From positions 682,001 through 746,000 of the forward strand of contig CAIZHQ010000016.1 of the NCBI GenBank assembly GCA_903932865.1: 64,000 nucleotides of DNA, in the 5' to 3' direction. Shown in pieces: positions 50,808-51,833 of the stretch. Under the pieces are notes generated by a model. That model saw only the letters and a program-made list of their open reading frames with translations. It searched no databases and was not told the origin of the DNA. The stretch comes from an uncultured Burkholderiales bacterium (lineage in GTDB: Bacteria; Pseudomonadota; Gammaproteobacteria; Burkholderiales; Burkholderiaceae_C). Position numbers and translations under genes: made by a program. How positions within the stretch are numbered: position 1 is the stretch's first letter; each line of letters begins with the position of its first letter.

Positions 50808-51833
50808 TCAGGCCGTCAAGCCCGTGAGCTTTTCACTCAGCGCCCACAAGCGGATGCCCAAACTTTCTTGTGTGGCTTTGGCCGCCAGCTTTTGCGCAAA
50901 AGCAGGCCGCCCCGGGCGCTGGCGGTTGCCCCAACTCCAGTGCACGCCCGAGGTGGCGAAATCGTCGTCCACCACCACTTGCGCCACGCGCTCCCCCGCC
51001 AAGGCTTGGCTGACGTAGCCCTTGGTGATGTTCTTCTGGAACCACGGAAAGATGCGTTGAAAGGCCAAAGGCGTGTCGCGAAACAAAGCGGTATCGGCCA
51101 CGCAACCGGGGTACACCGTGCTGCACACCAGACCGGTGGTGTCGTGAAAGCGGCGGTGCAACTCTCGGCTGATGACCATGTTGCACAGCTTGCTGTCTTT
51201 GTAAGCTTTGCCGGCCTTGAAGGCCTTACCGTCGATCATGGCCACTGGGTCCAGAAAACTTTGTTCCAGCCCCACCAAATCGCCCAAGTCGGCCGGGGCG
51301 GGAATGGGCACTTTGCCGCCAAATTCCTCGGAATTGGCCGTCACGGTGCCCAAGGTGATGATCCGCGCACGGAAAGCCGATTGTTTGGCCCGTTCCCGAT
51401 TCTGGGTGCTGAGCAGCAAATCCATCAACAATCAGCTCATTAAAAAGTGCCCCAAATGGTTGGTGGCCACGCTCAGTTCGTAGCCTTCGGGTGACCGGGC
51501 GGGCGTCTTCAGTCGCGGCTGGTAAGAGGCGGCGTTGTTCAGCAGCGCATGCAGGGGCCAGCCCAGGGCCAAATAGGCCGCCACAAAATCACGCACGCTT
51601 TGCAAAGACCCCAAGTCCAACTGCATGAGCGTGAAGTGGCCTGCGGGCAACTGCATCTCGGCGGCCACGCGTTCGGACTTGGCCAGGTCTCTGCAGGCCA
51701 TGACCACATGCCTGCCCTGCTGGATCAGCGACGCGGTGGCATACAGACCGACACCCGACGAGGCGCCGGTGACAATCACAATGGAGTTGAGGGGCTGGTT
51801 CATGGGGGTTGAAGGTACAAGGCGCATGTTCAT
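50808..51833 (-). pseudogene. por: Light-dependent protochlorophyllide reductase (LPOR), interrupted by one in-frame TGA
   Basis: The frame from 51833 to 50808 encodes 341 codons of LPOR-like sequence with a single TGA at codon 134 (51432-51434). The N-terminal part has VIVTGASSGVGLYATASLIQ, NNAASYQPRLKTP and ELSVATNHLGHFLMS just before the stop. The same frame resumes with [18 protein letters not shown], the catalytic [13 protein letters not shown] (Tyr211, Lys215, Cys217 in this numbering) and [15 protein letters not shown] reduces protochlorophyllide to chlorophyllide in light. The start at 51833 overlaps the bchC copy stop as ATGA. All motifs are intact either side of the TGA, so this is a recent lesion, a sequence error or a recoded site. 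Confidence 0.88.

Follow-up and report, generated by a model that had tools for sequence, protein, structure and literature searches.

A premature stop codon in the light-dependent protochlorophyllide reductase gene of a Limnohabitans lineage, a probable recent pseudogene

The light-dependent protochlorophyllide reductase (LPOR) gene in the window, the stretch of 64,000 nucleotides analysed here, is interrupted by one in-frame TGA. It is very probably a recently inactivated gene, in which a nonsense mutation has caused loss of function in a gene that was dispensable. The nearest named relatives of the window's genome are Limnohabitans. An Arg codon (CGN) appears to have changed to TGA in this lineage. 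Translation would end after 133 residues, ahead of the catalytic Tyr and Lys and the remaining fold, and we infer that no working LPOR is produced. The cell would tolerate this loss because DPOR, whose genes are present and whose activity is presumed, performs the same reduction without light. The loss seems to be further along in two relatives that no longer have the gene, one of them with clear relics of it. Loss of selection would be the cause. The broken LPOR is ordinary gene decay caught partway, a new example of a known process. The covered part of the matches in the open-licence literature makes no mention of a broken LPOR, LPOR relics or LPOR loss in Limnohabitans.

Identity and coordinates of the LPOR frame

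The LPOR features of the window are as follows.

50808..51833, minus strand: LPOR gene, probable pseudogene, from ATG 51833-51831 to the natural stop TGA 50810-50808 (TIGR01289, relatives, PDB match)
51432..51434, minus strand: premature TGA, codon 134 of the LPOR frame (CGN, Arg, in 10/10 other Limnohabitans LPORs)
51435..51833, minus strand: N-terminal LPOR fragment of 133 codons, covering TIGR01289 positions 5-121 with the NADPH-binding Rossmann part
50808..51431, minus strand: C-terminal LPOR fragment of 207 codons, covering TIGR01289 positions 132-314 with YKDSK and conserved Cys residues

The frame is about 340 codons long (339-340) up to the natural stop and has a single internal TGA. 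With X placed at the stop, it scores 423.7 bits against TIGR01289 and passes the cut-off of 331.35 over its full length. The initial annotation described a full-length LPOR-like frame broken only by TGA at 51432-51434, codon 134. Its coordinates and codon number hold, and the strand, which was left unsaid, is minus. Chance origin is no concern for a conserved frame of 339 codons with one stop.

The frame is not uninterrupted, as TGA stands at codon 134, and each half scored apart falls below the same cut-off (152.1 and 262.6 bits). The halves match adjoining parts of one model, positions 5-121 and 132-314 of 315, and thus make up a single gene interrupted by one stop, not two genes. The start is placed at 51833 and not at codon 11 because two relatives, G059 and G024, have Thr (ACG) at codon 11. 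The C-terminal fragment is without translation unless there is readthrough or re-initiation.

The NADPH-binding motif TGASSGVG and the catalytic YxxxK, here YKDSK, are both found in the window LPOR and are invariant in 13 aligned rows, in agreement with the earlier description of an intact Rossmann loop and YxxxK region. The best PDB match is the Thermosynechococcus POR (E 3e-123). This enzyme from Thermosynechococcus elongatus (PDB 6l1h, 6rnv) is the best solved relative and aligns nearly end to end, over P0001 residues 4-329. It is uninterrupted and has Asn where the window LPOR has the stop. P0001 residue numbers plus 10 give the numbering from ATG 51833.

Codon 134 in related LPORs

LPOR was searched for in 90 Limnohabitans genomes at a threshold of E 1e-60, and 11 of them, the window's genome included, gave a match at this level or better. 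The other ten LPORs carry CGT (five), CGC (four) or CGG (one) at the stop position, all encoding Arg. The comparison with related strains that had been proposed as a check therefore returns Arg at codon 134 in every case, and the Asn/Cys context of plant and cyanobacterial LPORs, in which the stop had been placed, does not apply to this genus. None of the ten contains an internal stop, which makes the TGA a disabling mutation that is absent from intact orthologues.

The wider set is composed of the best 80 of at least 570 LPOR relatives, some of which come from the same genomes as the genus members. Codon 134 is variable in these 80 loci: N in 35, R in 18, H in 12, Q in 8, K in 3, and M, L, A and V in one each. 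Internal stops are found in 0 of these best 80. Two codons ahead of the stop, the window LPOR has Met and 79 of the best 80 loci have Leu. Across the 13 codons around the stop, the window differs from its relatives by point changes only. A recent nonsense mutation was among the possibilities first listed, and it is favoured by CGN in all ten genus LPORs together with the lack of stops in the best 80 of at least 570 relatives. The change from CGG, CGC or CGT to TGA would take two base changes, e.g., via CGA.

An assembly or base-calling error is the alternative closest at hand. The true codon would then be a sense codon, as in the other ten Limnohabitans LPORs, and the LPOR would be intact. One wrong base call suffices for a TGA, and internal stops do occur in drafts of the genus, as in hflK of the fragmented draft G062 (codon 269). 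However, the window's genome (26 contigs, 3772854 bases in total) has a reported completeness of 99.99% and a contamination of 0.2%, and a random consensus error at the stop is therefore unlikely. Ten control genes of this genome have no internal stops. A single error would also not predict the excess of changes at conserved LPOR residues elsewhere in the gene. An error at this site is considered improbable.

Six sequences of relatives in the control genes do have a stop. Five of these stops lie before the likely start codon, and one, in hflK of G062, is internal. The latter is a stomatin/HflK-like gene at 3488-4405 of L115, and its stop at codon 269 is probably of technical origin.

Readthrough and re-initiation at the premature stop

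In a readthrough scenario, some ribosomes would insert an amino acid at the UGA, and full-length LPOR would be made, perhaps under regulation. The frame is open past the stop and mostly conserved, and an omega of 1 is rejected on the window branch (see below). As the residue at codon 134 is variable outside the genus, a protein made by readthrough might accept a different residue there. The machinery for such recoding is not apparent, however. The cut-off for selB is 242.25 bits, and the best match in the window's genome reaches 110.2. No tRNA-Sec is over threshold, and what matches its model weakly are ordinary tRNAs for Ser, Leu, Trp, Gly and Tyr. Selenocysteine at the LPOR UGA is rejected, with SelB and tRNA-Sec both below their cut-offs. 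A suppressor tRNA is unlikely as well, as none of the 38 tRNAs found, all of them typed, has a UCA anticodon; the set has no tRNA-Ile, and some tRNAs may thus lie in gaps of the assembly.

Genes around LPOR end in UGA more often than in any other stop codon: it terminates 12 of the 17 checked window genes, the natural stop of LPOR included, and reassignment of UGA is therefore rejected. UGA-C is a leaky stop context; the base after the premature stop is U. Since TGA is present in only 1 of 11 Limnohabitans LPORs, this is not a conserved recoding site. Readthrough had been put forward as a possibility in the initial annotation and has gained no positive evidence, given the scores of selB and tRNA-Sec and the 0/38 UCA anticodons. 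It is very unlikely to explain the gene. The same small chance is given to readthrough at a useful level, perhaps by a near-cognate tRNA, in which case a little LPOR beside DPOR would amount to a naturally throttled light-dependent enzyme.

A split gene would require re-initiation after the stop, with a second chain starting at TTG or ATG and the two halves reassembling. In-frame TTG, TTG and ATG (51425) codons directly follow the premature TGA, and re-initiation there is possible on paper. Against this, no sequence resembling a ribosome-binding site is seen by eye ahead of the three codons, the 13 codons around the stop show only point changes relative to relatives, and the break lies within the conserved LPOR fold. 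The split form is also absent from the 12 other aligned rows and from the wider loci (0 of the best 80 of at least 570). We give a split gene hardly any weight, and the nonsense mutation is the preferred reading.

Selection on the window LPOR

In a codon model of seven sequences, omega is 0.19 on the window branch and 0.088 elsewhere (2dlnL 3.88, about P 0.05). With 11 sequences, the rise on this branch has a 2dlnL of 3.37 (about P 0.07). Fixing omega at 1 on the window branch strongly lowers the likelihood (2dlnL 16.4, seven sequences). Neutral evolution over the whole branch is ruled out by this test, and most of the branch was thus under constraint. Ten neighbouring genes, with four to seven sequences each, have no significant omega rise on the window branch in the same test.

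Conserved columns were defined as those with at least 97% conservation among 85 distinct LPORs, after eight identical rows were dropped, and 115 columns are of this kind. The window LPOR departs at four: W31R, L122M, L148I and G182S (P0001 numbering). Among the ten other Limnohabitans LPORs, eight have no such departure, G024 has one and G074, like the window, has four. Five of the LPORs from outside Limnohabitans among the 85 have 4, 4, 4, 5 and 6 departures. The window accounts for 4 of the 9 departures in the genus on 4.6% of the branch length (binomial P 0.0005, a test chosen after seeing the data).

At columns that are otherwise invariant among the 11 Limnohabitans rows, gapped columns excluded, the window has 5 departures, and G074 also has 5. 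Of the unique residues of the window LPOR, 5/8 are at such columns, against 10/70 for the other ten LPORs (Fisher P 0.0055). By these alignments, the window LPOR has changes at four nearly invariant residues, an excess over what its short branch would predict. The intact NADPH loop and YxxxK are, on the same alignments, no proof that the gene is maintained, as these four residues elsewhere are altered. Constraint on the gene looks relaxed, probably for the last part of the branch only. The omega rise is marginal, and the loss in the window lineage appears to be recent.

The LPOR of G074 (L019, 1501-2463) is stop-free, and its four departures at nearly invariant residues include N90T and P168T. 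It may be another LPOR in decay, or the changes may be noise from the assembly.

Loss of LPOR in two relatives

G070 and G072 keep both neighbours of LPOR, the second bchC copy (bchC2) and an NmrA-like gene, which are about 90-92% identical to those of the window. Between these two genes, neither genome has an LPOR match, and the gap is only about 125 bases. In a long-gap alignment, the G072 gap is colinear with LPOR near the gene start and again around codons 89-101. Its long-gap scores are 32-41 for four of four LPOR targets, vs a maximum of 20-22 in 300 dinucleotide shuffles. In plain local alignment, 1/300 shuffles reaches the score for one of the four targets. The G070 gap matches LPOR weakly: the score is reached by 0, 0, 0 and 1 of 300 shuffles in local alignment and by 0, 0, 0 and 3 in long-gap alignment. 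It aligns with the G072 gap at 105/137 columns. On these alignments, the LPOR relics appear clear in the G072 gap and weak in the G070 gap. In G042, the stretch after bchC2 holds no convincing LPOR relic (best E 0.074).

In the NmrA-like tree, G070 and G072 group together among LPOR carriers, and the carriers G062 and G067 branch earlier (local supports 0.78 to 1.00). Because of this nested position, the absence of LPOR from G070 and G072 is best read as loss. The sister of the window differs between trees: it is G059 in the LPOR tree and G024 in the NmrA-like tree. A concatenated tree was set aside in favour of the NmrA-like tree, since it placed G042 inside the group and, out of up to 8832 sites, covered just 981 in G067 and 2634 in G062.

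The close relatives form a natural series in which LPOR is whole (G059, G062, G024, G067), stopped (the window) or gone (G070, G072). These strains share the same neighbours as far as their contigs extend. As a matched set, they lend themselves to the question of whether oxygen and light favour the retention of LPOR beside DPOR.

DPOR and the distribution of LPOR in Limnohabitans

The DPOR genes bchL, bchN and bchB are present in the window's genome, over their cut-offs and stop-free. LPOR as the sole protochlorophyllide reductase is ruled out by these genes. In the genus, bchL is over its cut-off in 57/90 genomes, and 47 of these 57 lack an LPOR match, some of them being incomplete genomes. 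Among the 11 LPOR carriers, bchL passes its cut-off in all but G062, an 82%-complete genome with no match to bchL or bchX.

LPOR had been described as rare in anoxygenic phototrophs and its presence here as important. The second point is weakened: LPOR is already published for Limnohabitans sp. 15K and other aerobic anoxygenic phototrophs (PMC7947762), and 11/90 genomes have a match. The LPORs of Limnohabitans sp. 15K and Dinoroseobacter shibae are of the same family as the window gene over its full length and, like it, are found beside DPOR and the photosynthesis gene cluster. The 15K protein, from the same genus as the window, is about 78% identical. Unlike these, the window LPOR is cut short by the TGA at codon 134, and more of its conserved sites have changed. 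The assay in PMC7947762 was complementation of a Rhodobacter capsulatus bchB deletion, and no LPOR from Burkholderiales had been assayed in that study.

Redundant protochlorophyllide reductases with lineage-specific loss of one are likewise found in algae, as the available portions of PMC4337275 and PMC6802932 describe. In PMC6802932, to the same extent, it is the light-independent enzyme that is lost, in algae, whereas the window case concerns the light-dependent one in a bacterium.

The Gemmatimonas LPORs (L042, L055, L067, L110) are 63-72% identical to the betaproteobacterial LPOR of the window. These identities are in line with the published LPOR transfer to Gemmatimonadetes (PMC7947762).

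Genes neighbouring LPOR

The neighbouring features of the window are as follows.

49803..50789 (listed ORF 49683-50789), plus strand: NAD(P)-binding NmrA-like oxidoreductase, convergent with LPOR
51830..52900, minus strand: second bchC copy (bchC2), ORF from GTG 52900, with the bchC match starting at residue 43
53068..54003, plus strand: alpha/beta hydrolase, divergent from bchC2, with a BchO match that stays below cut-off
56577..57569, plus strand: canonical bchC of the bchCXYZ run
57530..61612, plus strand: bchX, bchY and bchZ (chlorophyllide a reductase), all over cut-off
62264..63313, plus strand: pufL, reaction centre subunit L

With pufL at this position, LPOR adjoins the photosynthesis gene cluster. 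The start of bchC2 is probably near 52777, as the bchC match begins only at residue 43. Its stop overlaps the LPOR ATG (ATGA), and the two genes thus look translationally coupled. For the NmrA-like gene, 49803 is an in-frame codon picked for comparison and not the ORF start. This gene (49803-50789) is a candidate BciA-type 8-vinyl reductase.

The two bchC copies (51830-52900 and 56577-57569) are both over the TIGR01202 cut-off and are about 49-54% identical across types. The copy just upstream of LPOR, bchC2, is also found in the LPOR-less relatives G070, G072 and G042. In G014, G052, G071 and G074, LPOR is beside the NmrA-like gene, with no bchC2 within the stretches compared. In G027 and G054, LPOR is beside the alpha/beta hydrolase with no bchC2 between. 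Within Limnohabitans, the tail-to-tail arrangement of the NmrA-like gene and LPOR occurs in two different settings.
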